Below are positions 592-62,801 of a stretch of DNA of 64,000 nt, one piece after another. Source of the stretch: Siphonobacter aquaeclarae (GTDB taxonomy: Bacteria > Bacteroidota > Bacteroidia > Cytophagales > Spirosomataceae). Location of the stretch: NCBI RefSeq assembly GCF_900103285.1, contig NZ_FNGS01000007.1, positions 1 to 64,000 on the forward strand, in the 5' to 3' direction. The first letter of the stretch is position 1. Every line of letters begins with the position of its first letter. The position numbers and the translations under genes are program-made. A model generated the notes under the pieces. That model made no database searches. It was not told the origin of the DNA and saw nothing but the letters and a program-made list of their open reading frames with translations.

Positions 592-1408
592 TTGGAGGTG
601 TTGTTAAAGCTGGTTAAGCTTCCCCGTAGCAACTTCTACTATCACCTCAAAGCCGCCTCGGCATCAGACAAGTACGCCTTGGTGAAAAAAGAGCTAAAAC
701 AGCTCTATCACCGGCATAAGGGTCGTTTGGGCTATCGGCGGCTGACACTTGCACTCCGGAAAACCGGAACCATCATCAACCACAAGACCGTCTTCAGGCT
801 TCTGAAAAGCCTGGGGCTGCGCTCACTGATCCGCGTGAGGAAGTATCGCTCCTACAAAGGGGGAAACAGGCCAGGCTGCAGACAATGTCCTGGGCCGGAA
901 CTTTCTCTCTGAGAAGCCTAATCAAAAATGGGCAACCGATGTGACTGAGTTCAGAGTTCGAGACAGGAAGTTGTATCTGTCGCCGATCCTGGACCTTTTC
1001 AACGGAGAGATTATCAGCTACAGCCTGTCGGAATCACCCAACTTTGCTCAGGTGACGGACATGCTCAAAAAGGCATTCAGGAAAGTAAAACGGGCTCAAA
1101 CCAAGGGTCTTATCCTTCATTCGGATCAGGGATGGCAGTATCAAATGAAGCGGTATCAGAAGCTTTTGCAAGCCAGAGGTATCATCCAAAGTATGTCCCG
1201 AAAAGGCAACTGTCTTGACAATGCCATTATCGAGAACTTCTTTGGCACTATTAAAGCTGAGTTGTTTTACCTTAACAAATACCTTTCCATCGACCAACTC
1301 AAAAAGGATATTATCGACTATATCCATTATTACAACCACGACAGAATCAAACTCAATTTAAACGGCAAGAGCCCGGTTCAGTACCGAGCTCTTCGAATCG
1401 AATCGTAA
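592..1408 (+). pseudogene. IS3-family transposase OrfB (DDE integrase), frameshifted
   Basis: The catalytic half of the transposase is split into two frames. The first part (to 912) carries the HTH_21-type segment (YPLEVLLKLVKLPRSNFYYH ... YRRLTLALRK) and then runs out of frame. The second part continues in the +1-shifted frame from about 860 to 1408 with the rve integrase core. The DDE residues are present: the D of WATDVTEF (codon 938-940), the D of LHSDQGWQYQ and the E of NAIIENFFG. The break maps to a run of five G at 859-863; removing one G restores YKGETGQAADN, which matches the family. True translation is expected as an OrfAB fusion from the slip site at 505-511, so the TTG at 592 is unlikely to be the real start. 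A sequencing error in the G run is possible. Confidence 0.85.
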
Positions 1409-1414
1409 CTTTTA

Positions 1415-1441
1415 CCTGTCCAACTTTTGGGGGCTAGTCCA
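1415..1441 (-). repeat. IS right terminal inverted repeat (IRR)
   Basis: Reads TGGACTAGCCCCCAAAAG on the minus strand, matching the left end. The host flank starts at 1442 with CCGTGAAGCAGC followed by nine T. Confidence 0.9.
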
Positions 1442-1467
1442 CCGTGAAGCAGCTTTTTTTTTATACG

Positions 1468-2859
1468 CTAATTTCTGCCGCCCCGGCCACGGGGACCGCC
1501 GCCGCCGTGACTCTCACCACCGCCACGCGGTTGAGAAAAGCCCCCGTTTCCTCCGCCGTTGCCGCGGCCCATTTCAGGACGGCTGCCTCCGCCGAAACCA
1601 CGATCAGCATTCCCGCCGCCGAAGCTTCGTTGCTGGCGACCGCCAAAATCCGGGCTGGCCTGACGGTTACCGCCGAAGTCCGGCGTGCCCTGAGAGCGGG
1701 GAGCATCCGGGATACGTTGTTGTTCCCGGGGGAAGTCCCCCTGGCGGTTGCCGCCGAAGTCAGGTGTACCCTGTGAACGGGGGGCATCCGGGATACTTTG
1801 CTGCTGCCGCGGGAAGTCTCCCTGGCGGTTGCCGCGGAAATCCGGGGACGACTGTTGGCCCTGCTGCCGGTTGCCCTGGAAATCCGGGTTTGCCTGGCGG
1901 TTGGACCGGTAGTCCGGCGTATTGTCACGGTTACCGGGGAAGTCGGTATTTCCCTGCCGGTTACCCGGTGTATTGTCGCGATTGCTGTCGAAGCCACCCT
2001 GGCGGTTACCCTGGAAGTCAGGGCCGTTTTGCCGGTTGGAACGATAGTCAGGGGTATTGTTGCCTGAACGGTCCCAGTTACGGTCGTTCTGCCGGTTACC
2101 CTGGTAGTCGCGGTTGTCGCGATTGCCCCGGTTATCGGCCCAGGCGCCGCGGTTGTTATCTCCGCGGTAGCCGTTGTTTCCACCGTTGTAGAAACCGGCG
2201 CGGCGGCCGTAGTCTTCTGCCCGGCGGACGGAAACAGTGCGTCCGGTAGCCCGCTGAATATCATAGCGGGAGGGGCCCGAGAAGAAAGAGCGGTTGTTGT
2301 ACCGGTAGACGTTGTTGATGATGGTCGTCGTATGATAGACATTCACCACCCGCGTTCTCGGCACGCAGAAGCTGTAAATCCGAGGCCGGTAGATGTAGCT
2401 CTGGGGCACAAACACCCAGTAATTCCAGGGCAGGTTGATATTGATGTTGATGTTCATGCCCGGTCCGAGGGGCGCCCATCCATAATATCCGCCGCCGGTA
2501 CGCCAGCCTACCCAGGCCGGTCCCCATTCATATCCCGGAATCCAGCACCAGCCCCAGCGCGGGTCCATCGTCCAGCGGCCATAGTGAAACGGCGCCCAGC
2601 CCCAGGGATAATCCGATACCCAGGTATTGCCGTAGTCGGTCATGTCCCAGTGTCCGGCAGTGCCGTAAGGTTGAAAATCCTGGCCGGCGTTGGGTATCCA
2701 CACCTGACCGTATTCCGGATTCTGCATCCACTGCCCGTAGGGAGAAAGCTCGTCATAGAACGTCTGAAAGTTAACATTCACCTGAGCAGAGGCGCTTCTT
2801 CCTGCTACCAGCAGAAAAGCCGCGATGACGAGAGTCTGTATGTATTTGCCGGTTTTCAT
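1468..2859 (-). CDS. Secreted W/Y-rich protein (DUF6600-like) with N/R/Q/G-rich repeat tail
   Basis: 463 residues. Signal peptide at 1-25 (cut after SASA-Q). Residues about 30-175 form a tryptophan/tyrosine/glycine-rich region starting YDELSPYGQWM with repeated W-x-P and GWAPFHYGRW motifs, matching the DUF6600 type; its function is unknown. After about residue 215 the protein becomes low complexity: degenerate repeats around PDF-x-GNRQ, then a Gly-rich tail ending RGGRN. It is probably an extracytoplasmic or surface protein; the Arg-rich, disordered tail could bind anionic polymers (inference). The stop codon lies only 27 bp from the IS right end, so the natural 3' region was probably displaced. 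Transcribed away from the isomerase-like gene at 3151. Confidence 0.72.
   Translation of the reverse strand: MKTGKYIQTLVIAAFLLVAGRSASAQVNVNFQTFYDELSPYGQWMQNPEYGQVWIPNAGQDFQPYGTAGHWDMTDYGNTWVSDYPWGWAPFHYGRWTMDPRWGWCWIPGYEWGPAWVGWRTGGGYYGWAPLGPGMNINININLPWNYWVFVPQSYIYRPRIYSFCVPRTRVVNVYHTTTIINNVYRYNNRSFFSGPSRYDIQRATGRTVSVRRAEDYGRRAGFYNGGNNGYRGDNNRGAWADNRGNRDNRDYQGNRQNDRNWDRSGNNTPDYRSNRQNGPDFQGNRQGGFDSNRDNTPGNRQGNTDFPGNRDNTPDYRSNRQANPDFQGNRQQGQQSSPDFRGNRQGDFPRQQQSIPDAPRSQGTPDFGGNRQGDFPREQQRIPDAPRSQGTPDFGGNRQASPDFGGRQQRSFGGGNADRGFGGGSRPEMGRGNGGGNGGFSQPRGGGESHGGGGPRGRGGRN
1640..2135. repeat. Degenerate tandem coding repeats in the tail of the W-rich protein
   Basis: Imperfect units built around codons for GNRQ-x-x-PDF-x-GNRQ recur every roughly 40-90 bp through this stretch, including two nearly identical copies of RQGDFPR-x-QQ-x-IPDA (around 1700-1740 and 1780-1830). 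Units are in-frame and diverged, consistent with slippage-driven expansion inside the coding region. Confidence 0.65.
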
Positions 2860-50943: not shown

Positions 50944-51022
50944 CCGGTCAGAATCGATAAGGCCTTTTCCCCAAGGTCTTACCAACTTATCAGGCATGGC
51001 CCGAAGGGCCGGTAATCAGCGT

Positions 51023-53476
51023 ATGAAAGTTCTAAAGTTCGGAGGTACCTCCGTAGGAAGCATCAAGGCCATCGAGTCGGTTTTGGGCATTGTTCAGGAT
51101 AATCTTCAGCGCGGTGAGAAAATTGCGGTTGTGTTTTCGGCAATGGGCGGGTTTACCAACCAGTTGCTCGAAATGGGCAACCGGGCGGCTCGGAATGAAG
51201 ACTACCGGGATGTTTTGAAGAAAGCATCCGATCGTCACCTGGAAGTGATTAACCATTTCATCGGCCCGCGGTTCCGCAGCCGGGTTATCGCAGACGTGAT
51301 GACGCTTTTCAATGAACTGGAAGACCTCCTCCGCGGAGTATCCCTGATCCGCGAGATTTCTCCGCGAACATCGGACCTCCTCGTCAGCTTCGGCGAACGC
51401 CTTTCCACGACTCTGGTTACCGAAATCCTGAAAGACCGCGGCGTAGACTGCGCCTTTCTCGATGCCCGGAAAGTCATCAAGACCAATGCACATTTTCAGC
51501 AGGCGGAAGTCAATTTCGAACTGACGAACCACCTCATCCAGCATCATTTCGCCAAAACGAAGTCCCTGCAACTGATTACCGGGTTTATCGGGTCGACGGA
51601 AGACGGCATCACGACGACCCTCGGCCGCGGGGGATCCGACTATACCGGCAGTATCTTCGGCTCGGCACTCAACGCCTCTGTCATCGAAATCTGGACGGAT
51701 GTTCCGGGTATGATGACGTCCGATCCCCGGAAGGTACGCAATGCCTTTACGATTCCGGTCGTAAGCTATGCCGAGGCCATGGAGCTGACGCATTTCGGTG
51801 CGAAGGTAATCTACCCGCCGAGCCTGACGCCGGCGTTCAAGGCGAATATCCCCATCAAGGTTCTCAACACCTTCGATCCCGCACATCCGGGTACGATTGT
51901 GACCCGGCAGGCGCCGCGGCACGAATACATCATTACGGGTATCAGCTCGATCGATAACCTGGCGCTGGTGAATCTCCAGGGTTCGGGTATGATCGGCGTG
52001 GCCGGGGTGTCGGCGAAGCTGTTTACCGTACTGGCACGCTATGATATCTCGGTGATCCTGATTTCCCAGGCGTCGTCGGAACACTCGATCTGTTTCGCCA
52101 TCGATCCGAAGTATTCTGAAAAAGTCCGGGAAGTAATCGAAACCGAATTCAGCAACGAACTCCGTACCGGAGACCTGGAAGGCGTTGAGATTCAGGAAGA
52201 ACTATCGGTTATCGCGATTGTCGGGGAAGGTATGCGCCGCCATACCGGCGTTTCCGGGCGTTTGTTTTCCGTCCTCGGAAAGAACGGTATCAACATTGTG
52301 GCCACGGCCCAGGGCAGCTCGGAGCTGAATATCTCGGTGGTCATCGAGCGGAAAGACCTTTCAAAAGCCCTCAACGTCATCCACGAGAGCTTCTTTGCCG
52401 ATCAGGTGAAGACGCTCAACCTGTTTCTCGTCGGCAGCGGCCTCATCGGCAAAGCCCTGATCCGCCAGCTGGAGCAGCAGGAGCATTATCTCCGGAAATA
52501 CAAAAACCTGAAAGTACGGTTCATCGGCGTGACCAACAGCCGGAAGATGCTCTTCGACGAAGGCGGTATTTCCAAAGAACACTGGCAGGAACGCCTCGAC
52601 ACGGAAGGGCAGCAGGCAGACCTGGGCTACTTCGTTGAAAAAGTGAAGAGCCTCAACCTGCCGAACAGCATTTTCGTGGATTGTACGGCCAATAAGCCGA
52701 TTGTCGACTATTATGAAGGCATACTGGAAGCATCGGTCTCTATCGTGACGCCGAACAAAACCGCCAATGCCGCGCCCTATGACGAATACGCCCGCCGCCA
52801 CCGCATGGCCCTGAAAAAAGGGGTGAAGTTTCTCTACGAAACGAATGTCGGCGCGGGTTTGCCGGTCATCAATACCATTCAGGGGTTGATTGCTTCGGGA
52901 GATCGTTTTCAGAAGATCGAAGGGGTATTCTCCGGCACGCTCAGTTTCATTTTCAATACCTTCCGGCCGGGCCTGCGCTTTGCGGAGGTCGTTCGGGAAG
53001 CCAAAGCCAAAGGATATACTGAGCCGGACCCGCGCGACGACCTCAGCGGTCAGGACGTAGCCCGCAAAATCCTTATTCTGGCCCGGGAAATAGGCCTGGA
53101 ACTGGATTTTGAGGATGTTGAAATCACGCCCCTGCTGCCGGAAAACTGCCAGCAGGCGCCGACCGTCGATGCCTTTTTCGGAGAGCTGGAAAAAAGCAAC
53201 GCTGTCTTCGAAAAGTGGGTCAACGATGCCGACGCCAAGGGCGAAAAGCTCCGCTACGTCGCCACGCTGGAAAACGGAAAGATCCAGATCGGGCTCAAAT
53301 CCGTCGGCGCCGACCATCCGCTCTACCCGCTGGAAGGCGCAGATAACATCATTTCTTTCACCACGAAACGCTACCACGACCGGCCGCTGGTCATCAAAGG
53401 GCCGGGCGCAGGCGCAGAAGTAACCGCGTCGGGCGTCTTCGCAGATATCGTATCCATCGGAAGTTACCTTTCGTGA
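51023..53476 (+). CDS. thrA: Bifunctional aspartokinase / homoserine dehydrogenase
   Basis: 817 residues. Aspartokinase domain (1-290): KFGGTSVGS (4-12), TSDLLVSFGERLS, TTLGRGGSDYTGSIFG. Two ACT domains follow (about 310-455: GVAGVSAKLFTVLARYDISVILISQASSEHSICFAI; GVSGRLFSVLGKNGINIVATAQGSSELNISVVI), implying feedback inhibition. Homoserine dehydrogenase domain (460-817): GSGLIGKALIRQL, IFVDCTANKPI, PNKTANA, GVFSGTLSFIFNTF, DPRDDLSGQDVARK. It channels aspartate towards threonine and methionine. ATG 51023 gives the standard N-terminus; ATG 50996 would add nine residues. thrB lies 8.3 kb downstream instead of adjacent. Confidence 0.97.
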   Translation: MKVLKFGGTSVGSIKAIESVLGIVQDNLQRGEKIAVVFSAMGGFTNQLLEMGNRAARNEDYRDVLKKASDRHLEVINHFIGPRFRSRVIADVMTLFNELEDLLRGVSLIREISPRTSDLLVSFGERLSTTLVTEILKDRGVDCAFLDARKVIKTNAHFQQAEVNFELTNHLIQHHFAKTKSLQLITGFIGSTEDGITTTLGRGGSDYTGSIFGSALNASVIEIWTDVPGMMTSDPRKVRNAFTIPVVSYAEAMELTHFGAKVIYPPSLTPAFKANIPIKVLNTFDPAHPGTIVTRQAPRHEYIITGISSIDNLALVNLQGSGMIGVAGVSAKLFTVLARYDISVILISQASSEHSICFAIDPKYSEKVREVIETEFSNELRTGDLEGVEIQEELSVIAIVGEGMRRHTGVSGRLFSVLGKNGINIVATAQGSSELNISVVIERKDLSKALNVIHESFFADQVKTLNLFLVGSGLIGKALIRQLEQQEHYLRKYKNLKVRFIGVTNSRKMLFDEGGISKEHWQERLDTEGQQADLGYFVEKVKSLNLPNSIFVDCTANKPIVDYYEGILEASVSIVTPNKTANAAPYDEYARRHRMALKKGVKFLYETNVGAGLPVINTIQGLIASGDRFQKIEGVFSGTLSFIFNTFRPGLRFAEVVREAKAKGYTEPDPRDDLSGQDVARKILILAREIGLELDFEDVEITPLLPENCQQAPTVDAFFGELEKSNAVFEKWVNDADAKGEKLRYVATLENGKIQIGLKSVGADHPLYPLEGADNIISFTTKRYHDRPLVIKGPGAGAEVTASGVFADIVSIGSYLS

Positions 53477-53506: not shown

Positions 53507-53577
53507 GCAAGGGGCAGCGGGCATGGGGTGGCGGGTCTGTTACCCCATGCCCGCTGCCCCTTGCCCCATGCCCCATG
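53507..53577. repeat. Perfect 22-bp inverted repeat, GGGCA/ATGGGG family (family D)
   Basis: Arms 53507-53528 and 53543-53564 are exact reverse complements around a 14-nt loop; a further ATGCCCCATG unit continues to 53577. The loop carries the stop codon of the metallopeptidase gene, so the right arm encodes that protein's last residues. Confidence 0.9.
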
Positions 53578-54631
53578 CTCTCTTCATCCGGCGGCCGGTT
53601 TTGACCAGCCGGTGAATGAAGCGCATTTTGTCCGCTACGGCAGGTGTGAATACTTCGGGAACGAGGTCGGGCAGGCCCATCGCCCGGTTTAGCTCATTGG
53701 CTTTGATGCCCAGTTGCTCGTAATGGCGCAGCAGCGTGTCGAGTTCTATGCCGGCAAAGCTCTCCTTTTCTTCTTCGTCGAGAAGCAGGCTGACGTTTTC
53801 GGCGGTATCCAATACGGAAATCATTTCGAGATAAGCCCGGAAGGTTTCGGCGAAATCCTCCCAGGGGTGCATGCTGGCGTAGGCACTGACGCAGCGCTGC
53901 GGCCAGTCGGGTGCGGGGCCATTGCGGTAGTACGTATCCAGCGCTTCGGAATACGAAGGATTGTCGTGGTCTCCGAAAACGACTTTAAATGCTTCTTCCC
54001 GGCGGTTTTGAACCAGCAATTGCCAGTAATAGTGGCCGATTTCATGCCGGAAGTGCCCGATCAGGGTGCGGTGCGCTTCGCCGAACGCGACGCGGTTTTT
54101 CTCCCGCTCCACCGGGTCGGCTTCGCGGATATGAATGGTAATGACGCCGTCGGCATGGCCGGTAAAGGTCTTTTCGACCTGCCCGTCTTCTTCCACAACA
54201 TCGTCTTTGAACTCAAACGTCAGCGGCAGCTCAAAACCGTCAAATACCGACGCATAGGGCAGGTCGAGAAGGTCCAGGTTGTACAAAAGCCGCCGTTTGG
54301 CGGTTTCGAGCTGGTACCATTTTTCCTGGTTACCCGGTATGCTGAGATCGGGGATCGTCCGGTTGAGCGCGCAGCAGGAACAGTAGGCAGGCGCTTCTTC
54401 CCAGGTGGTGGTGACAGCTACCATCTGATTACATACCTGGAAATCCCGGTAATTGGTACATTGCACCGTAGATGCCTGGCAGTGATCGCAGGTATAAGCG
54501 GGCGTCCCGGTTGACGTGAAGGAGCGCATCCCTTTGCACGACGGGCACCAGCCGACGTCGCGGCCACAGGAAACGCAGCGGGAATTCTCAAAATGAAGGG
54601 TATTGCCGCATTGGCAGGCGAAGGTTTTCAT
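53540..54631 (-). CDS. Zinc-ribbon putative metallopeptidase of the peptide-tagging locus
   Basis: 363 residues. N-terminal zinc ribbons with many Cys (6, 8, 19, 22, 29, 32, 48, 51, 58, 67, 84, 86, 87; patterns CxC, CxxC). A middle domain holds HEIGHYYW (His196, Glu197, His200) with a downstream Glu in FAETFRAYLEM (Glu262), i.e. an HEXXH zincin-type site; family: zinc-ribbon plus putative zinc-binding metallopeptidase. The last ten or so residues (GMGQGAAGMG) are encoded by a palindromic repeat, so the native C-terminus was probably altered. Divergent from the ligase cluster with a shared 234-bp promoter region, suggesting a functional link. Cytoplasmic (no signal peptide). Confidence 0.85.
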   Translation of the reverse strand: MKTFACQCGNTLHFENSRCVSCGRDVGWCPSCKGMRSFTSTGTPAYTCDHCQASTVQCTNYRDFQVCNQMVAVTTTWEEAPAYCSCCALNRTIPDLSIPGNQEKWYQLETAKRRLLYNLDLLDLPYASVFDGFELPLTFEFKDDVVEEDGQVEKTFTGHADGVITIHIREADPVEREKNRVAFGEAHRTLIGHFRHEIGHYYWQLLVQNRREEAFKVVFGDHDNPSYSEALDTYYRNGPAPDWPQRCVSAYASMHPWEDFAETFRAYLEMISVLDTAENVSLLLDEEEKESFAGIELDTLLRHYEQLGIKANELNRAMGLPDLVPEVFTPAVADKMRFIHRLVKTGRRMKRAWGMGQGAAGMG

Positions 54632-54736
54632 GTGTCTGGCCGGTTGGGTTTGCTGACCGGTTCACGTTAGACAAAAAGCATGCCGCGAACCGGGGATTGT
54701 AACCCCGTAGATGGAGTTGGTAGTCTTGGATCGAAG

Positions 54737-54754
54737 GATTATTTCGGAATAATC
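54737..54754. promoter_or_regulatory. Palindrome GATTATT-TCGG-AATAATC in the divergent control region
   Basis: Perfect 7+4+7 inverted repeat, about 105 bp from the metallopeptidase start and 112 bp from the ligase start. Candidate operator for both directions; a hairpin is also possible. Confidence 0.5.
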
Positions 54755-54771
54755 TTTTACTATTCCCGATA

Positions 54772-54805
54772 TTTGCATTAAAATAGTTGGTAAAATGTAG
54801 TTGTC
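54772..54805 (+). promoter_or_regulatory. Possible promoter of the ligase cluster (TTTG ... TAGTTGTC)
   Basis: TTTG at 54772-54775 and TAGTTG at 54798-54803 are 26 bp apart, the spacing expected for -33/-7 elements in Bacteroidota, although the -7 box is imperfect. Confidence 0.45.
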
Positions 54806-54865
54806 GCATCATTTTAGCGAAATCTGCTGTTCCCATTTCTGAAAACACGTGCGTCTTCCTTTTCT

Positions 54866-57800
54866 ATGGCTATTAAAGTTGCGATATCCCATAAAACAAG
54901 CTACCACTTCGACCGGCTGGTAGGCCTTTCCCCACATGTTTTCCGTCTGCGTCCTGCGCCGCATTCCCGGACGCCGATCGAAGGATACTCGTTCAAGGTA
55001 TTTCCGGAAAATCACTTTATCAACTGGCAGCAGGACCCGTTCGGCAACTACCAGGCGCGGGTTGTTTTTCCGGATAAAACAAAGGAACTCCGCATCGAAG
55101 TGGAGGTGATCGCCCGGATGGAGGTCATCAATCCTTTCGATTTTTTCGTCGAAGACTATGCGGAGAATGTCCCGTTTTCATACGACGAACAACTGGAAAA
55201 AGAACTGATTCCCTACCTCGAAATCCGGGAAGACGGTCCGCTGCTGAAACAATGGATTGCCGAAAACCGCATAGACGAAAAAATCCGGACGGTAGACTAC
55301 CTCGTTCACCTGAACCAGCGCATCAACGCCACAATCGGGTATAATATCCGGATGGAGCCCGGCGTGCAGACCTGCGAAGACAGCCTGACGATCCGCAGTG
55401 GCTCCTGCCGCGATTCGGCCTGGCTGCTGGTACAGGTACTCCGGCACCTCGGAATTGCGTCCCGGTTTGTTTCGGGATACCTCGTTCAACTAACCCCGGA
55501 TGTCAAATCGCTCGACGGCCCCTCCGGCCCTGAAGCCGATTTTACCGACCTCCACGCCTGGGCGGAAGCCTACGTGCCGGGCGCGGGCTGGATCGGTCTG
55601 GATCCTACTTCCGGGCTGTTTGCAGGGGAAGGGCATATCCCCCTTTGCTGCACGCCGCATTACAAAAGCGCCGCGCCGGTGACCGGGGCGACGGATGCCT
55701 GCGAAGTGACGTTCGATTACGAAAATAAAGTCTATCGCATCCACGAAGATCCCCGGGTGACGAAACCCTACTCCGACGAGCAGTGGGCGCAAATCATGGA
55801 AGTCGGCAACACGGTAGAGGCAGATTTGCAGGCGGGTGACGTCCGGATGACGATGGGCGGAGAACCGACCTTCGTTTCGATTGACGACCGGGAATCGCCG
55901 GAATGGAACTCGACCGCCGACGGTCCCCTGAAACGAAAATTGTCCTATGACCTGGCCCTTCGCCTCAAAAAGCGTTTCGCACATGGCGGCCTGTTGCATT
56001 TTGGCCAGGGCAAGTGGTATCCCGGGGAATTATTTCCACGATGGCAATATGGATTATACTGGCGGAAGGACGGATTTCCCATCTGGCAAAACGACGACCT
56101 GATCGCCCGGGAGGGGGAAACCAGCTACACCTTCGCTGACGCCGAACGTTTTCTGACGGAACTCGCCCGATACCTCGGCGTTGATGTTGCCAATATTCAA
56201 CCGGCCTATGAAGACCCGGTGTATTGGGCGCTGGAGGAAGACCGGCTGCCGGTCAACGTCGACCCGCTGGAAGTAGACCTGAAAGATTCCGTCGAACGGC
56301 GTACCCTCGCAAGTATCCTCGAACGCGGGATGAATAATCCGGCCGGATTTGCATTGCCGCTCGCCTGGAACTACGGCCCACAGGCCTGGAACAGCTGTAT
56401 ATGGCAGTTCCGGCGGAAGCACTGCTTCCTCATACCCGGCAATTCGCCGGTAGGTCTTCGCCTGCCGCTGAACTCCCTTCCGTATGTGACAACCAACCGC
56501 CGAGAGAAACCGGTCGAGCGGAGCCCGTTTGAGGAGTTACCGCCGCTCGGCGCATTTGCTCCTATTGTCGAGCAGCGCTACGGAGCCGTGACGGCTACCT
56601 ACGAAGCGCCGGTAGCACCGGTGCTGGAAGAAGACGAGGCAGAAAAAGAGCGAAAGCCGCTTTTCCACATCGATACGATCAAAACGGCCCTGGCCGTGGA
56701 AGCCCGGGACGGTATTATCTACCTTTTTCTGCCTCCGGTTGATTATTTCGAACATTACCTCGACCTGGTTGCTGCTATCGAAGCTACTGCGGCCCGGTTG
56801 CGTATGCCGGTCCGGATCGAAGGATATACGCCTCCGTCAGACTACCGGGTGCAGAAGCTGGTGGTATCTCCCGACCCCGGCGTCATCGAAGTCAATATTC
56901 ACCCTTCTGCCAACTGGCAGGAGCTGGTCGACAATACCACGGCTCTTTACGAAGAAGCGTTTCTGTCGCGTCTGGGGACGGAGAAGTTTATGGTTGACGG
57001 CCGTCATACCGGCACCGGAGGCGGTAACCACGTAACGATAGGGGGCAGTCGCCCGGCCGACAGCCCCGTACTGCGACGTCCTGACCTGCTCCGAAGCCTG
57101 ATTACGTACTGGCAGCATCACCCGGCGCTGAGTTACCTCTTTTCGGGGGCGTTTATCGGCCCGACGAGCCAGGCGCCGCGCGCAGACGAAGGCCGGGACG
57201 AACGTCTCTACGAAATGGAAATCGCCTTCGATCAGATTCCGGAAGAGGGCGAGATACCCTTCTGGCTGGTAGACCGGATTTTCCGGAACCTGCTGGTCGA
57301 CATTACCGGCAATACCCACCGGACGGAGTTTTGCATCGATAAACTGTATTCGCCGGATTCGTCGACCGGCCGCCTCGGTATTCTTGAATTCCGGGCGTTT
57401 GATATGCCGCCGCACAAGCACATGAACCTGGTGCAGACCCTGCTGATCCGGGCGCTGGTGTCGATGTTCTGGAAACAGCCTTACAAGAAAAAGCTCATCC
57501 GCTGGGGTACCGAGCTGCACGACCGGTTCCTGCTGCCGCATTATGCGTATCTCGACATGATCGATGTCGTGAACGACCTGAAAACGGCCGGATATGACTT
57601 CGATATTTCCTGGTTCGATCCGTTCTTCGAATTCCGGTTCCCGCTTTACGGACGTGTGACGGTCGATTCCGTTGAACTGGAACTGCGCCTCGGCATCGAA
57701 CCCTGGCATGTACTGGGCGAGGAATTGTCTAGCTCGGGTACTGCCCGCTTTGTGGATTCGTCGGTGGAGCGCCTCCAGGTGAAAGTGACGGGCTTTGTGG

Positions 57801-58267
57801 AAGGCCGGCATATTCTGGTCTGCAACGGCTGCCGGGTACCGCTCCGCAGTACAGGCACGAAAGGCGAATACGTAGCCGGTATCCGGTACAAGGCGTGGAA
57901 CCCGCCGTCGGCCCTTCATCCGACTATCGGTGTGGATGCGCCCCTGGTTTTTGATATCGTGGATACGTGGAATAACCGGATCCTCGGCGGGTGTACCTAT
58001 TTCGTTTCCCACCCGGGCGGGCGGAGTTTTGATACTTATCCCGTCAATGGCTACGAAGCAGAATCCCGGCAGATCAGCCGCTTCTGGGGCTTTGGCCATA
58101 CGCCGTCGCGGACGGAGCAGATTCCCGTCCCGATAAAATTTACTCCGAGTATCTCTAGATTTGTGGCCGAACACAAGAAGGATCTCCGCGCCGATGCGCC
58201 TGTGGACCTGGTGAACCCGGAGTATCCGACCCTGCTCGATCTCCGGCGGTTCTGGAGATCAAAGTAA
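54866..58267 (+). CDS. Transglutaminase-like domain fused to DUF2126 (circularly permuted glutamine-synthetase-like ligase)
   Basis: 1133 residues, two parts. Residues 1-290: bacterial transglutaminase N-terminal beta domain (KVAISHKTSYHFDR) and papain-like core with catalytic Cys181 (GSCRDSAW), His230 (DLHAWAEAY) and Asp246 (WIGLDPTSG). Residues about 300-1133: DUF2126, starting TMGGEPTFVSIDDRESPEWN, with FGQGKWYPGE, GRHTGTGGGNHVTIGG, LGILEFRAFDMPPHKHMNL and KYRAWNPPSALHPTI-type (YKAWNPPSALHPT) motifs. DUF2126 has been classified as a circularly permuted glutamine-synthetase-like COOH-NH2 ligase. A peptide ligase and a peptidase in one chain suggest making and removing an isopeptide or peptide tag (inference). 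First gene of a three-gene cluster. Confidence 0.93.
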   Translation: MAIKVAISHKTSYHFDRLVGLSPHVFRLRPAPHSRTPIEGYSFKVFPENHFINWQQDPFGNYQARVVFPDKTKELRIEVEVIARMEVINPFDFFVEDYAENVPFSYDEQLEKELIPYLEIREDGPLLKQWIAENRIDEKIRTVDYLVHLNQRINATIGYNIRMEPGVQTCEDSLTIRSGSCRDSAWLLVQVLRHLGIASRFVSGYLVQLTPDVKSLDGPSGPEADFTDLHAWAEAYVPGAGWIGLDPTSGLFAGEGHIPLCCTPHYKSAAPVTGATDACEVTFDYENKVYRIHEDPRVTKPYSDEQWAQIMEVGNTVEADLQAGDVRMTMGGEPTFVSIDDRESPEWNSTADGPLKRKLSYDLALRLKKRFAHGGLLHFGQGKWYPGELFPRWQYGLYWRKDGFPIWQNDDLIAREGETSYTFADAERFLTELARYLGVDVANIQPAYEDPVYWALEEDRLPVNVDPLEVDLKDSVERRTLASILERGMNNPAGFALPLAWNYGPQAWNSCIWQFRRKHCFLIPGNSPVGLRLPLNSLPYVTTNRREKPVERSPFEELPPLGAFAPIVEQRYGAVTATYEAPVAPVLEEDEAEKERKPLFHIDTIKTALAVEARDGIIYLFLPPVDYFEHYLDLVAAIEATAARLRMPVRIEGYTPPSDYRVQKLVVSPDPGVIEVNIHPSANWQELVDNTTALYEEAFLSRLGTEKFMVDGRHTGTGGGNHVTIGGSRPADSPVLRRPDLLRSLITYWQHHPALSYLFSGAFIGPTSQAPRADEGRDERLYEMEIAFDQIPEEGEIPFWLVDRIFRNLLVDITGNTHRTEFCIDKLYSPDSSTGRLGILEFRAFDMPPHKHMNLVQTLLIRALVSMFWKQPYKKKLIRWGTELHDRFLLPHYAYLDMIDVVNDLKTAGYDFDISWFDPFFEFRFPLYGRVTVDSVELELRLGIEPWHVLGEELSSSGTARFVDSSVERLQVKVTGFVEGRHILVCNGCRVPLRSTGTKGEYVAGIRYKAWNPPSALHPTIGVDAPLVFDIVDTWNNRILGGCTYFVSHPGGRSFDTYPVNGYEAESRQISRFWGFGHTPSRTEQIPVPIKFTPSISRFVAEHKKDLRADAPVDLVNPEYPTLLDLRRFWRSK

Positions 58268-58305
58268 CCCCGTGACGCCGGTGGCGCTCGCGGACAGATA
58301 ATGAA

Positions 58306-60855
58306 ATGGTAGCAGAAATTACGAAGGATTTGCTGGACGCATACCGGAAGGAAATCAGCTCTTACGACGAAGTACTGGATGCCGGCGGGGCCTTTAAACC
58401 CCACTGGAAGAAGCTGTTTTCGTCGCTCGGAGCCATGGGTATGGACGAGTTGAAAAACCGTAACCAGGAAATCAAGAATAAAATCCGGGAAAACGGGGTG
58501 ACGTACAACGTCTACGAAAGTCCCGACGGCATGAACCGGCCCTGGAAGCTCGATCCGATTCCCTTTCTCATCGAGCAAAAGGAATGGCAGGGTATTTCGA
58601 AGGGATTGCAGCAGCGGGCTGTATTGCTCGACCTGATTCTCCGGGATATTTACGGCGAACGGAAGCTTATCAAAGACCAGGTACTCCCGGCCGAGCTGGT
58701 ATTCGGCAACTCCGGGTTTCTGCGCCCCTGCCAGGATGTGAAGCTGCCGACGCAAAATCAGCTGGTTATGTACGCGGCCGACATGGCCCGCGGACCGGAC
58801 GGCCGCATGTGGATTCTCGACAACCGGACGCAGTCGCCGTCCGGCTCCGGGTATACCCTCGAAAACCGGGTGATTGTGAGCAAGGTCATGTCCGACATGG
58901 CGAAGGATATGTACATCAGTCGCCTGTCGCCGTTTTTTACCCATGCTCAGCAATCGATTTTCAAGGTATTCAAGGAAAAAACCGAAAGCCTGAACGTCGT
59001 TTACCTCACGCCCGGGCCGGCCAACGAAACGTACTTTGAGCACGCCTACCTGGCGTCGTACCTGGGGTATACGCTGGTTTTGGGGGACGATCTGGTGGTG
59101 AAAAACGGGCACGTTTTCATCAAATCGATCGACGGCCTGAAGCGGGTAGATGTGATCGTCCGCCGGGTCGACGACGAATGGTGCGATCCCCTCGAACTCC
59201 GGGAAGATTCACGCCTGGGCGTACCCGGCCTGTTGGAAGCCATGCGGAAAGGAAACGTGATGGTCATCAATCCTCCCGGCGCCAGCGTCCTCGAAAACAA
59301 TGCCTTCAATGCCTTCTTACCGTCGGCCTGCCGGTATTTCCTGAACGAAGAACTGCAACTGCCATCGGTAGCGACGTGGTGGTGCGGGCAGGAAAAGGAA
59401 CTTCGCTTTGTCCTCGAAAACCTTCCCCGGCTGATCATCAAAAAAGCCAACCGCAAGCAGGTATTCCGCTCGGTGTACGGCCGGGAGCTGTCTGCCGAAA
59501 AGCTGGCGGAACTCAAAAAGCAGATCCTCAACAATCCGGCGGAGTATGTGGCGCAGGAAGAGGTCAGTTTTTCGACGACGCCTGCGTTCGTTGACGACCG
59601 CATCGAACCGCGTTTTGCCGCCATCCGCGCGTTTCTGACCGCTACGCCCAACGGCTATCAGGTCATGCAGGGCGGGCTGACGCGCAGCTCTCCGCTGAAA
59701 GACCGCTTTACGTTCTCCAACCAATACGGAGGCGTGGCGAAGGATACCTGGATCGTTTCGAACGAAGCGGAGATCATCCGGGATCGAATCGTGCTGCCTG
59801 CGCTGACGCCGCATGTCAACGCCCTGTCGTCATTGCCCAGCCGCAGTGCCGAGAATATGTTCTGGGCCGGCCGGTACAGCGAGCGGTCGATGGCCGCGGC
59901 GACCTTCCTGACAATTACCCTCAACGCGCTCAATTTCCAGCGCAACTTCGGGAATACCAACAAGAGCCAGCACATCGACATACTCCTCAAAAGCCTCAGC
60001 CACCTCATGCAGGTGGAGCCGGGTTTCCTGGGAGAAGAAGGGGAGGAGTACCTGAAAGACCCGTATCCGGTGGTGCTGGACATGATTTCGAACGGAGAGA
60101 AACCCGGTACGATCGTCTCCAGTACCGAATCCTTTTTGCGGGCGATGATTTCTGTCCGGGAAAAATGGAACCTCGTGACGTGGCGGATCATCGACCTTAT
60201 TGAAAATATTACCAACAAGTTCAAAAATCCCGGAGCCGATCTTCAAAAATCCCTCGATAAGCTTCAAACCCGCTTATTTACATTCTACGGGATTGTAGTC
60301 GAGTCGGTACCCCGCACAAACGGATACTATCTTTTCGAAGCAGGTAAACTCATCGAGCGGATACTGTCGAAAATCGTAATTCTCCGTTCCGTATTCAGCC
60401 AAAAGACGGATCGTTTCATCGAAAACGAATTGCTGGAAGCGGTATTGATGAATCACTTTGCACTCGTGCATTACCGCTCCGCTTACCGGTCTAATCTGGA
60501 AACGGAATATGTGCTCGATATGGTACTGCTCGACAAGCAGATACCTTCGTCGCTCGTGAGCCTGCTTGATTCCCTGAGCTATTGCCTGACGCAGTTACCG
60601 GCAACGGACGACCGCCTCAGTGCTGCCCAGAAGGCGGTATTGTCAGCGTCGACGCGCATCAAGCTCGTTGATATTCACGAGGTCAGCCGGCCCGAACACC
60701 GTACCATGCACTATGTGCGCCTGGATCAGGTATTGTCGGAGGTCTATGACTCGGTGTTATCGGTGTCGGACCATACCACGAATTTGTATTTCAACCATAC
60801 CTCGACGCAGCACTCGCTGAACGAGTCGATCCCGGGGCCGGAAGATGAAGTTTAG
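58306..60855 (+). CDS. Circularly permuted ATP-grasp ligase fused to alpha-E domain
   Basis: 849 residues. Residues about 1-500: circularly permuted ATP-grasp type 2 (DUF404/DUF407), with YNVYESPDGMNRPWKLDPIPFLI, ILRDIYGERKLIKDQVLP, WILDNRTQSPSGSGYTLENR, INPPGASVLENNAFNAFLP and IIKKANRKQVFRSVYG. Residues about 509-849: alpha-E (DUF403), an all-helical domain starting LPSRSAENMFWAGRYSERSMA. In most genomes these are two adjacent genes; here they are one protein. Predicted to ligate amino acids or peptides by an acyl-phosphate intermediate. 38 bp after the DUF2126 gene; its end overlaps the next gene by 11 nt, implying translational coupling. Confidence 0.93.
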   Translation: MVAEITKDLLDAYRKEISSYDEVLDAGGAFKPHWKKLFSSLGAMGMDELKNRNQEIKNKIRENGVTYNVYESPDGMNRPWKLDPIPFLIEQKEWQGISKGLQQRAVLLDLILRDIYGERKLIKDQVLPAELVFGNSGFLRPCQDVKLPTQNQLVMYAADMARGPDGRMWILDNRTQSPSGSGYTLENRVIVSKVMSDMAKDMYISRLSPFFTHAQQSIFKVFKEKTESLNVVYLTPGPANETYFEHAYLASYLGYTLVLGDDLVVKNGHVFIKSIDGLKRVDVIVRRVDDEWCDPLELREDSRLGVPGLLEAMRKGNVMVINPPGASVLENNAFNAFLPSACRYFLNEELQLPSVATWWCGQEKELRFVLENLPRLIIKKANRKQVFRSVYGRELSAEKLAELKKQILNNPAEYVAQEEVSFSTTPAFVDDRIEPRFAAIRAFLTATPNGYQVMQGGLTRSSPLKDRFTFSNQYGGVAKDTWIVSNEAEIIRDRIVLPALTPHVNALSSLPSRSAENMFWAGRYSERSMAAATFLTITLNALNFQRNFGNTNKSQHIDILLKSLSHLMQVEPGFLGEEGEEYLKDPYPVVLDMISNGEKPGTIVSSTESFLRAMISVREKWNLVTWRIIDLIENITNKFKNPGADLQKSLDKLQTRLFTFYGIVVESVPRTNGYYLFEAGKLIERILSKIVILRSVFSQKTDRFIENELLEAVLMNHFALVHYRSAYRSNLETEYVLDMVLLDKQIPSSLVSLLDSLSYCLTQLPATDDRLSAAQKAVLSASTRIKLVDIHEVSRPEHRTMHYVRLDQVLSEVYDSVLSVSDHTTNLYFNHTSTQHSLNESIPGPEDEV

Positions 60856-61705
60856 ACTGATCCACAAAACGCAGTACAAATACGCGGGGCCGGTCAGCAG
60901 CTACCACAGCCTCGCCTGCGTGATGCCGAAAAGCCTGCCCCAGCAGGAATGCTCGAATTTCTCGCTGGTCATTTCTCCCTTTCCGGACGAAATCAGCCAG
61001 CGCGCCGACTATTTCGGGAATACCGTTCATTATTTCTCGATTCACAAGCCGCATACCCGGCTGACGGTGTTGGCCAAAAGCCTGATTGAAACCCGTGCGT
61101 TTACTATCCCGGAGCAGCTCATTACCTGTGCCGAAGTGCGGGAGCTGCTGGCTAATAGCCTGAAAAACAAGCTGCTGGAATATGTGCTGCCCAGTCCGTT
61201 TGTGTATTGGGACGACGAGATCCGGAACTATGCCCGCGATTGTTTTCCGGATGATGAGCCGCTCTACCGCTGCGCCCGGCGCCTGTGCCACAAGATCTAT
61301 TCGGAGTTTACATACGTTCCGGATTTTACGACGATCTATACACCGCTTAAGACGGTTTTGAAAGAGAAAAAGGGAGTTTGCCAGGATTTTTCTCACCTGG
61401 CTATCGCCTGCTTCCGCAGTCTCGGGTTTGCCGCCCGCTATGTCAGCGGGTACCTCGAAACCCAGCCGCCGCCGGGAAAACCCAAGCTGCAGGGCTCAGA
61501 TGCCACGCATGCCTGGGTATCCGTGTATGTGCCGGGCATGGGCTGGTGCGATTTTGATCCGACCAACGACGTGGTCCCGCAGGAAAGGCACATTGTCACG
61601 GCCTGGGGACGGGATTACGGAGACGTACCCCCGCTCAAAGGCATCCTGTTCAGTTCGGGAGGGCATGAGTTTCACGTAGCGGTGGATGTGCTGCCGGTGC
61701 CGTAA
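60845..61705 (+). CDS. Second transglutaminase-like protein of the cluster
   Basis: 286 residues. N-terminal transglutaminase beta domain (KFRLIHKTQYKYAGPVSSYHSLACVMPKSLPQQ) and papain-like core: Cys179 (KGVCQDFSHLAIA), His222 (DATHAWVSVYVPG) and Asp238 (WCDFDPTND). No signal peptide, so it acts in the cytoplasm, like its paralogue at 54866, as a probable peptidase or amidase rather than a cross-linker. Overlap of 11 nt with the ATP-grasp/alpha-E gene. Last gene of the cluster; no terminator is evident before thrB, which has its own promoter. Confidence 0.93.
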   Translation: MKFRLIHKTQYKYAGPVSSYHSLACVMPKSLPQQECSNFSLVISPFPDEISQRADYFGNTVHYFSIHKPHTRLTVLAKSLIETRAFTIPEQLITCAEVRELLANSLKNKLLEYVLPSPFVYWDDEIRNYARDCFPDDEPLYRCARRLCHKIYSEFTYVPDFTTIYTPLKTVLKEKKGVCQDFSHLAIACFRSLGFAARYVSGYLETQPPPGKPKLQGSDATHAWVSVYVPGMGWCDFDPTNDVVPQERHIVTAWGRDYGDVPPLKGILFSSGGHEFHVAVDVLPVP

Positions 61706-61739
61706 CGGAAACCGGCTTGGCTCCCGGTCCACTTTTCCC

Positions 61740-61747
61740 TACCTTTG
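61740..61747 (+). promoter_or_regulatory. -7 promoter element TACCTTTG of thrB
   Basis: Exact TAnnTTTG with a TTG at 61717-61719 (20-bp spacer); the ATG is 62 bp downstream. Confidence 0.7.
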
Positions 61748-61809
61748 CGGTCGAGTTTTTCACAGTGTCAGGCGGCCCCCCGCGCAACGCCGTTTTCTTT
61801 GTCCTGTTC

Positions 61810-62742
61810 ATGGAATCCATCAAAGTATTTGCACCGGCGACAGTTGCCAACGTAGCCTGCGGTTTTGATATCTTCGGTTTCGCCGTCGACAACCCCGGCG
61901 ATGAAATCATTCTCCGGAAAAAAGTATCTCCCGGCCTCGAAATCCTCAAAATTGAGGGAGACGAAGGGCGTCTGCCGCTTGATCCCGAAAGGAATACCGC
62001 CTGCATTTCCATGCTGGCCTATCTCCGGCATATCAATGCCAATCAGGGGATCAGTATCGAGCTGAAGAAGAAAATGCCGCTCGGCAGCGGCCTTGGATCG
62101 TCGGCGGCGAGTTCGGTGGCAGGCGTCTATGCCCTGAACGAGCTGCTCGGGCGTCCGCTCACGCAACTGGAACTGCTTCCCTTCGCGATGGAAGGCGAAC
62201 GTTTTGCCAGCGGTACGGCGCATGCCGACAACGTAGCGCCCAGTCTGCTCGGCGGTTTCGTCGCAATCCGTAGCTACGATCCGAAGATCGACGTCATCAA
62301 AATTGACACGCCGGCCGAGCTTTTTGCCACGATTGTACATCCTCAGATTGAGGTCAATACCCGCGATGCGCGGAATATTCTCCGGAAAGAAACATCCCTC
62401 AAAAACACGATTACCCAGATGGGCAACGTAGCAGGGATGGTCGCCGGCCTGATGAAAGGTGACTATGGCTTGATTTCCAGGAGTTTGGTCGACGTCATCA
62501 TCGAGCCGGTGCGGGCCATCCTCATTCCGGGATTTACCGAAGTCAAACAGGCCGCGATTGAAGCCGGTGCGCTGGGATGCAGTATCTCCGGGGCAGGCCC
62601 GTCCATGTTTGCGCTCAGCAAAGACCGCGATACGGCCAAGAAAGTCGGCGAAGCCATGCAACGGGCGTTTGCCGGTGTCCAGATCGACAGCGAAATCTAC
62701 GTTTCCGGAATCAACCAGAACGGCCCCGTCGTACTGGGGTAG
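61810..62742 (+). CDS. thrB: Homoserine kinase
   Basis: 310 residues, GHMP kinase: SIKVFAPATVANVACGFDIFGFAVDNPGD at the start, ATP loop MPLGSGLGSSAASSVAG (about 95-111), HADNVAPSLLGG, and the C-terminal GHMP motif GCSISGAGPSMFAL. It phosphorylates homoserine on the threonine branch. ATG 61810 is at the family's usual N-terminus; the open frame upstream crosses the promoter. thrC does not follow; a TerC gene does. Confidence 0.96.
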   Translation: MESIKVFAPATVANVACGFDIFGFAVDNPGDEIILRKKVSPGLEILKIEGDEGRLPLDPERNTACISMLAYLRHINANQGISIELKKKMPLGSGLGSSAASSVAGVYALNELLGRPLTQLELLPFAMEGERFASGTAHADNVAPSLLGGFVAIRSYDPKIDVIKIDTPAELFATIVHPQIEVNTRDARNILRKETSLKNTITQMGNVAGMVAGLMKGDYGLISRSLVDVIIEPVRAILIPGFTEVKQAAIEAGALGCSISGAGPSMFALSKDRDTAKKVGEAMQRAFAGVQIDSEIYVSGINQNGPVVLG

Positions 62743-62767: not shown

Positions 62768-62801
62768 ATCCCGGAAGGCTGCCTTCCGGGATTTTCCTTT
62801 T
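62768..62801 (+). terminator. Terminator after thrB
   Basis: ATCCCGGAAGG (62768-62778) pairs with CCTTCCGGGAT (62782-62792); T-rich tail TTTCCTTTTT. Confidence 0.87.

Follow-up and report, generated by a model that had tools for sequence, protein, structure and literature searches.

The window, i.e. the 64,000-nucleotide stretch of Siphonobacter aquaeclarae DNA that was analysed, contains a locus of four open reading frames whose limits were recovered exactly: 53540-54631 on the reverse strand, and 54866-58267, 58306-60855 and 60845-61705 on the forward strand. The divergent first gene encodes Mx, a putative zinc metallopeptidase that carries a zinc ribbon (Zn_ribbon_DZR_6 and Peptidase_Mx in Pfam, 277.5 bits). 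Across an intergenic region of 234 nt (54632-54865) lies TGD, a protein of 1133 residues in which a transglutaminase-like domain (Bact_transglu_N and Transglut_core, 54881-55606, with the conserved triad C181, H230 and D246) is fused to DUF2126, a putative amidoligase domain of the glutamine-synthetase-like type (55694-58246, with E333, H722, E821, E841 and R843 invariant). A gap of 38 nt separates TGD from GRA, 849 residues long, in which a circularly permuted (CP) ATP-grasp (CP_ATPgrasp_2, 482 bits) is fused to an alpha-E domain (161.8 bits, 59833-60792). The last gene, which overlaps GRA by 11 nt, encodes TG2, a stand-alone transglutaminase-like protein (Bact_transglu_N and Transglut_core; C179, H222, D238).

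On both sides the locus is bordered by threonine genes identified by Pfam, namely thrA (aspartokinase/homoserine dehydrogenase, 50996-53476, forward strand) and a thrB-like GHMP (homoserine) kinase gene (61717-62742, forward strand, with a start near 61798 suggested by homology). The thrB-like gene stands close behind TG2 and is trailed by a hairpin of 11 pairs with a T-run (62768-62792), so it may be co-transcribed with the operon; the region has no more terminator-like sites than expected by chance. We infer that the divergent intergenic region is likely to be the promoter region of both TGD and Mx, and it contains one promoter-like match (54756-54784), the number of such matches there being not above chance. 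The host genome, a 6.19-Mb draft in 19 contigs, has a single DUF2126 gene, and the closest relatives of the latter among the matches listed are those of Spirosoma terrae (82%) and S. arboris (81%), followed by other Cytophagales.

The original prediction placed these genes in a peptide-ligation system of the cytoplasm. Its gene positions and domains are borne out by the Pfam search, which found the DUF2126, CP-ATP-grasp, Alpha-E and transglutaminase profiles; NCBIfam gave no matches for the four proteins. Iyer et al. (2009) are said to have predicted a gene set that builds and breaks unusual amide bonds. The locus belongs to these amidoligase systems in that it has the same domain families (CP-ATP-grasp, DUF2126, alpha-E, transglutaminase) and its CP-ATP-grasp and alpha-E adjoin DUF2126. 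It differs from them in lacking an NTN peptidase and a canonical ATP-grasp, both of which are found elsewhere in the genome; the NTN peptidase, which had been counted as a part of the system, thus has a homologue on another contig (C13) and none in the locus. A simple hydropathy scan of the four proteins revealed neither a membrane segment nor a hydrophobic N-terminus, in agreement with the predicted lack of export signals (highest 19-residue mean 1.23; two membrane proteins encoded nearby reach 2.26 and 2.51).

GTDB genomes were scanned with the fused TGD protein as query, which confirmed at least 559 relatives; the best 80 of these were kept and sorted into 40 genus-level groups (our own labels, most MAGs forming their own group), considering ORFs of at least 70 aa. 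GRA and TG2 were both found near TGD, on either strand, in 68 of these 80 loci. Only four of the other 12 loci have full 10-kb flanks, the rest being cut by contig ends: one of the four (L045) has a separate-type ATP-grasp in place of GRA, and three (L047, L057 and L059) have TGD without GRA or TG2. The families that occur in at least 4 of the 40 groups (best 80 of at least 559 relatives) are TGD (40), TG2-like proteins (32), GRA (31), Mx (10), a separate alpha-E (5), a separate ATP-grasp (5) and one regulator-like family (4). Since the query was the fused protein, the scan is biased toward the fusion. A search with the DUF2126 HMM gave 5 positives among the 148 genomes of a phylum sample, all with ORFs of at least 1134 aa, and 40 positives among the 121 genomes of a family sample, where the ORFs have at least 1110 aa except for five entries in three fragmented or incomplete genomes (G157, G160, G161). 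The idea that the locus is a compact version, with the domains of four or five proteins placed on three, was therefore abandoned: both fusions are standard among the relatives, and it is the larger loci that have something extra, namely a canonical ATP-grasp and an alpha-E as separate genes. Such a larger form, consisting of canonical ATP-grasp, alpha-E, TGD, GRA and a transglutaminase (TG), is present on two proteobacterial plasmids, one of which adds a divergent Zn metallopeptidase. The latter, a plasmid of Caballeronia sp. M1242 (NZ_CP071132.1), matches the window in the order and orientation of metallopeptidase, TGD, GRA and TG but, unlike the window, carries the extra ATP-grasp and alpha-E just upstream.

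The DUF2126 match covers 826 of 826 profile positions (1309 bits), and the Cys-His-Asp triad of the transglutaminase-like domains is intact in 83 of 83 TGD proteins gathered and in 76 of 76 TG2 proteins, the window included in both cases. Sixteen Glu, His, Arg, Asp, Lys and Pro positions were inspected in the DUF2126 part of the 83 TGD proteins; 13 show no variation, and a single exception was seen at each of the remaining three. In a Foldseek search with the predicted DUF2126 model the transglutaminase domain was clear (3isr, E 9e-8). The model is poor (pLDDT 61, 18 sequences) and, among the matches listed, it reached glutamine synthetase with a probability of 0.28-0.54 and E values of at least 0.24, ranking below some unrelated chains. 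The putative ligase role of DUF2126 rests on the Pfam name and on the published classification.

The ATP-grasp domain of GRA (58561-59688) is a different case. We aligned 74 GRA proteins, window included, that have at least 36% identity to the window protein across at least 85% of its length, leaving out those that were truncated or further diverged, and compared them with 12 separate CP-ATP-grasps, a set that includes four Methylobacter proteins and one from the window's own genome. The E-D-N motif and the glycine loop correspond to the metal- and phosphate-binding elements of glutathione synthetases. Both E-D-N and the loop GGYGM are present in 12 of 12 separate proteins as well as in the solved structure 3n6x. 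In GRA, the Asn position of E-D-N is occupied by Arg in 74 of 74 proteins (Arg174, codon at 58825-58827; the window reads D-N-R), and the first position is taken by Asp in 55 of the 74 and by Asn, Ser, Lys or Gly in the others. The GGYGM loop is absent from all 74, another Arg (Arg383, codon at 59452-59454) stands just before its position in every one of them, and two residues of the R-H-x-D-L-R-P motif, H and D, are replaced. The same Arg replacement is seen in the fusions of the Enterobacter (35.7% identical) and Caballeronia (32.5%) plasmids. Lys379 (68 Lys, 6 Arg), Gln417 and Lys479-Asp480 are retained, so GRA may still be able to bind a nucleotide. Our reading of the alignment is that GRA is probably not a conventional ligase, yet it appears to be conserved too strictly for a decaying protein. 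The absence of expected ligand-binding residues from both ligase domains, which had been named as a refutation of the original prediction, is thus borne out by half: the ATP-grasp lacks E-D-N and the glycine loop, whereas the acidic, Arg and His positions conserved in DUF2126 are intact, and the loss of E-D-N and GGYGM leaves DUF2126 as probably the sole conventional ligase of the locus. We conclude that the locus is a standard member of an already predicted system, with DUF2126 as its likely working ligase.

These data bear on two other explanations. Firstly, ATP-grasp and DUF2126 might both act as ligases that attach amino acids or peptides to proteins, from which the peptidases remove them. 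Both ligase superfamilies are indeed present in the locus, and the published prediction, as relayed in the available excerpts of two papers (PMC5666114, PMC6376114), is one of protein tagging or peptide synthesis. However, the fused ATP-grasp has lost its two motifs in all aligned proteins, and no dedicated tag gene of at least 70 aa recurs in the 80 loci (best 80 of at least 559), which makes this explanation quite unlikely in our view. Secondly, Arg174 and Arg383 might form a new anion-binding or catalytic site, GRA being the enzyme of another reaction. The presence of both Arg residues throughout the alignment, in Bacteroidota and gammaproteobacterial loci alike, is stricter than one would expect from drift in a dead domain; on the other hand we know of no ligand or activity, and a conserved Arg could equally serve structure or assembly, so that we consider a repurposed enzyme rather doubtful, if worth keeping in mind.

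The predicted model of GRA has a mean pLDDT of 81, and its ATP-grasp half appears to have a fold like those of glutathione, glutathionylspermidine and trypanothione synthetases (2io7, E 1.3e-6). The protein behind 2io7, the E. coli glutathionylspermidine synthetase/amidase, likewise pairs an ATP-grasp ligase with an amidase, a CHAP-type Cys amidase that undoes or transfers the amide. In contrast to the locus, it is a single bifunctional enzyme with a known substrate.

TGD and the GRA-TG2 pair are separable modules. Among the 121 genomes of the family sample TGD is present in 40, at least two CP-ATP-grasp matches in 42, and both in 35; a second CP-ATP-grasp is therefore found in 35 of 40 genomes with TGD as opposed to 7 of 81 others (Fisher p=4e-18). 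The five TGD genomes in which it is missing are G166, G168, G192, G206 and G160 (the last 82% complete), and four of the five are counted as lacking the fused protein. Conversely, the 7 of 42 genomes that have the second ATP-grasp without TGD are five congeners of the window species, G221, in which no DUF2126 remnant was found in the 12 kb around its GRA-TG2 pair, and G263, whose contig is short (5.9 kb). In the five congeners sampled (L120-L124, 92-99% complete) a SulP permease, GRA (66-70% identity) and TG2 are encoded in the interval between thrA and thrB, and neither DUF2126 nor Mx was matched in the interval or in the genome. For the congener pair L120-L123 the omega value of GRA is 0.019 at a dS of 0.21, the other pairs being near saturation. 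The persistence of GRA and TG2 without TGD, and the purifying selection on GRA, suggest that the pair is useful without DUF2126, and DUF2126 in turn seems useful without the pair. The system is common in several lineages, and a likely ligase domain, separable modules and the occurrence of TGD in Anbu clusters turn the vague idea of tagging into a small number of defined assays.

As to the history of the site, five more distant genomes were checked: in four of these thrA and thrB are direct neighbours, in the fifth (G178) they are not. The arrival of one four-gene cassette at an empty thrA-thrB site was rejected, as the congeners hold SulP, GRA and TG2 there and only TGD and Mx differ. In the trees of GRA and TG2 (24 chosen sequences each) the window lies outside the clade of Spirosoma and the congeners (support 100/100 and 99/96, respectively). 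Since the window and both Spirosoma loci share the arrangement Mx-TGD-GRA-TG2, the more parsimonious reading is that the congeners lost TGD and Mx, transfer being a possible alternative. The SulP-type permease of the congeners is divergent, stands at the place of Mx and TGD, and contains Sulfate_transp and STAS domains in the one protein scanned. Its relocation within the window genome was rejected, as no orthologue was found there (best match 31%). About 3.4 kb downstream of TG2 (1081-2388, forward strand, of stretch L107) there is a gene whose product matches ATP-grasp_4 weakly, and a homologue, 69-75% identical, is found in four of the five congener stretches.

The metallopeptidase Mx is divergent from the operon, as originally noted, and its HExxH motif is intact: H196, E197 and H200 are present, along with three further acidic residues, in all 24 aligned proteins, window included. 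Apart from the 10 genus-level groups mentioned above, Mx also stands beside TGD in Caballeronia, and its placement is divergent in the window, Spirosoma and Caballeronia and downstream of TGD in Chitinophagaceae-type loci. In the family sample, Mx occurs in 3 of 40 genomes with TGD as compared to 14 of 81 without (p=0.17), so that TGD is present in 3 of the 17 Mx genomes where 5.6 would be expected. Only two strong Mx matches were found in the 148 genomes of the phylum sample, both in DUF2126 genomes (G000 and G064), and in G064 Mx is on another contig than DUF2126. A core role of Mx was rejected on account of the lack of co-occurrence across the family; as it nevertheless recurs near the locus, Mx can be regarded as an optional partner. 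In another genus (L094, L097-L103) Mx without DUF2126 adjoins an ABC-transporter-like gene, a hint that Mx may have a second role.

The window genome also contains the components of the proteasome-related Anbu system in a split form (L084, L106): a second alpha-E, an Anbu-type proteasome homologue and a TG lie together on contig C13, and a canonical CP-ATP-grasp is found alone on contig C7, flanked by a SelR gene and by an ORF that was recognized by eye as receiver-like. As almost every genome of the family has a separate ATP-grasp, its presence here is weak evidence of a partnership. Of the TGD genomes that lack the fused protein, both of those opened (G168 and G192; L131, L132) have DUF2126 among Anbu genes: TGD is clustered with Anbu, a canonical-type ATP-grasp and alpha-E but lies on the opposite strand, and no GRA or TG2 was found in the 16-18 kb read around it. 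This ties Anbu, a bacterial proteasome relative, to a DUF2126 ligase, and suggests that the locus is an accessory branch, a kind of satellite, of the Anbu amide-ligation machinery elsewhere in the genome. The Anbu operon, as described in the available excerpts of two papers (PMC5666114, PMC6376114), shares the families CP-ATP-grasp, alpha-E and transglutaminase with the locus; the window locus differs in having DUF2126 and a fused non-canonical ATP-grasp and in lacking Anbu.

The physiological findings cited here concern, as far as the available excerpts of the papers go, the Anbu branch or related domains, not DUF2126. In Pseudomonas putida grown on nitrate as compared to ammonium, the Anbu gene PP_2685 is up by 4.44 log2 units and the CP-ATP-grasp gene PP_2688 by 3.99 (PMC8050072), and Anbu is induced under nitrogen limitation (PMC5666114, PMC6376114). 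Expression of the Anbu operon was unchanged under several other conditions and the operon was not essential (PMC5666114). The ATP-grasp of the Yersinia bercovieri operon releases phosphate from ATP (PMC5666114, PMC6376114); for the Anbu protein of Y. bercovieri, neither peptidase activity nor a specific interaction with the other products of the operon was observed (PMC6376114). In marine metagenomes the alpha-E, CP-ATP-grasp and Bact_transglu_N domains correlate with domains of urea metabolism (PMC3597751). Three further papers (PMC12096838, PMC13207237, PMC8407117) mention related families only in passing in their available excerpts, and no experimental study of the DUF2126 branch is among the literature matches listed on alpha-E, CP-ATP-grasp, Anbu and inactive ATP-grasp. 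By analogy with P. putida, another organism whose Anbu genes belong to another branch, nitrogen limitation may be regarded as the best physiological lead.

The explanation we prefer, which we hold to be evenly poised between right and wrong, is that the locus represents the DUF2126 branch within the Anbu/amidoligase system, running a cytoplasmic, reversible cycle of amide ligation. DUF2126 would be the conventional ATP-dependent carboxylate-amine ligase, the two transglutaminase-like domains would undo or transfer the amide, and GRA, as a conserved non-canonical paralogue, would scaffold, regulate or bind an anionic ligand together with TG2. GRA might pair functionally with the canonical ATP-grasp on C7 and the alpha-E, Anbu and TG genes on C13. 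This explanation draws on the intact domains and transglutaminase triads, the motif loss of GRA as opposed to the separate proteins and 3n6x, the predicted GRA fold, the TGD-Anbu clusters, the persistence of GRA and TG2 without TGD, the co-occurrence of TGD with a second ATP-grasp, and the nitrate induction in P. putida. Counting against it are the three loci with TGD alone in full flanks, the low rank of glutamine synthetase among the matches of the DUF2126 model, the possible nucleotide binding by GRA, the unchanged expression and non-essentiality of the Anbu operon, and the lack of peptidase activity and partner binding in Y. bercovieri Anbu. To our knowledge, no activity has been described for TGD, GRA or TG2.

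An explanation that does not exclude the preferred one, and differs from it only in naming the acceptor, is that the locus does not mark proteins but makes and recycles an amide-linked metabolite, such as a conjugate of a peptide or polyamine, that would serve nitrogen or redox storage. The three synthetases that neighbour the predicted GRA structure, the urea correlation (PMC3597751), the nitrogen regulation of the Anbu branch (PMC8050072) and the lack of a recurrent tag gene of at least 70 aa point in this direction; since no metabolite is known and no recurrent transporter or biosynthetic neighbour was found in the 80 loci (best 80 of at least 559), we rate this possibility somewhat short of an even chance. 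Returning to the amide-ligation cycle, we also speculate, rather more tentatively, that GRA represents an ancient family of converted ATP-grasps in which the invariant Arg174 and Arg383 might replace the metal and phosphate-loop chemistry. GRA could then be a sensor, an allosteric partner or an enzyme of another reaction that controls, together with TG2, the separate machine of canonical ATP-grasp, alpha-E and Anbu, and TGD could be a plug-in ligase able to join this machine directly, as G168 and G192 suggest.

The Rlo/Rim systems of Pseudomonas, as described in the available excerpt of PMC12239564, resemble the locus in as much as their operons combine an ATP-grasp, a transglutaminase-like protein and a peptidase. 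The components are different, since Rlo/Rim systems have a RimK-like ATP-grasp, an inactive membrane-bound transglutaminase and aspartic peptidases. A phage origin of the locus was rejected, as the phage matches were limited to short transglutaminase stretches in two records. The second plasmid with the five-gene set is an IncFII plasmid of Enterobacter roggenkampii (L126, NZ_CP116251.1, 9501-30827), in which the region also contains arsC and has transposase genes at both ends, which suggests that the set can travel on mobile DNA.
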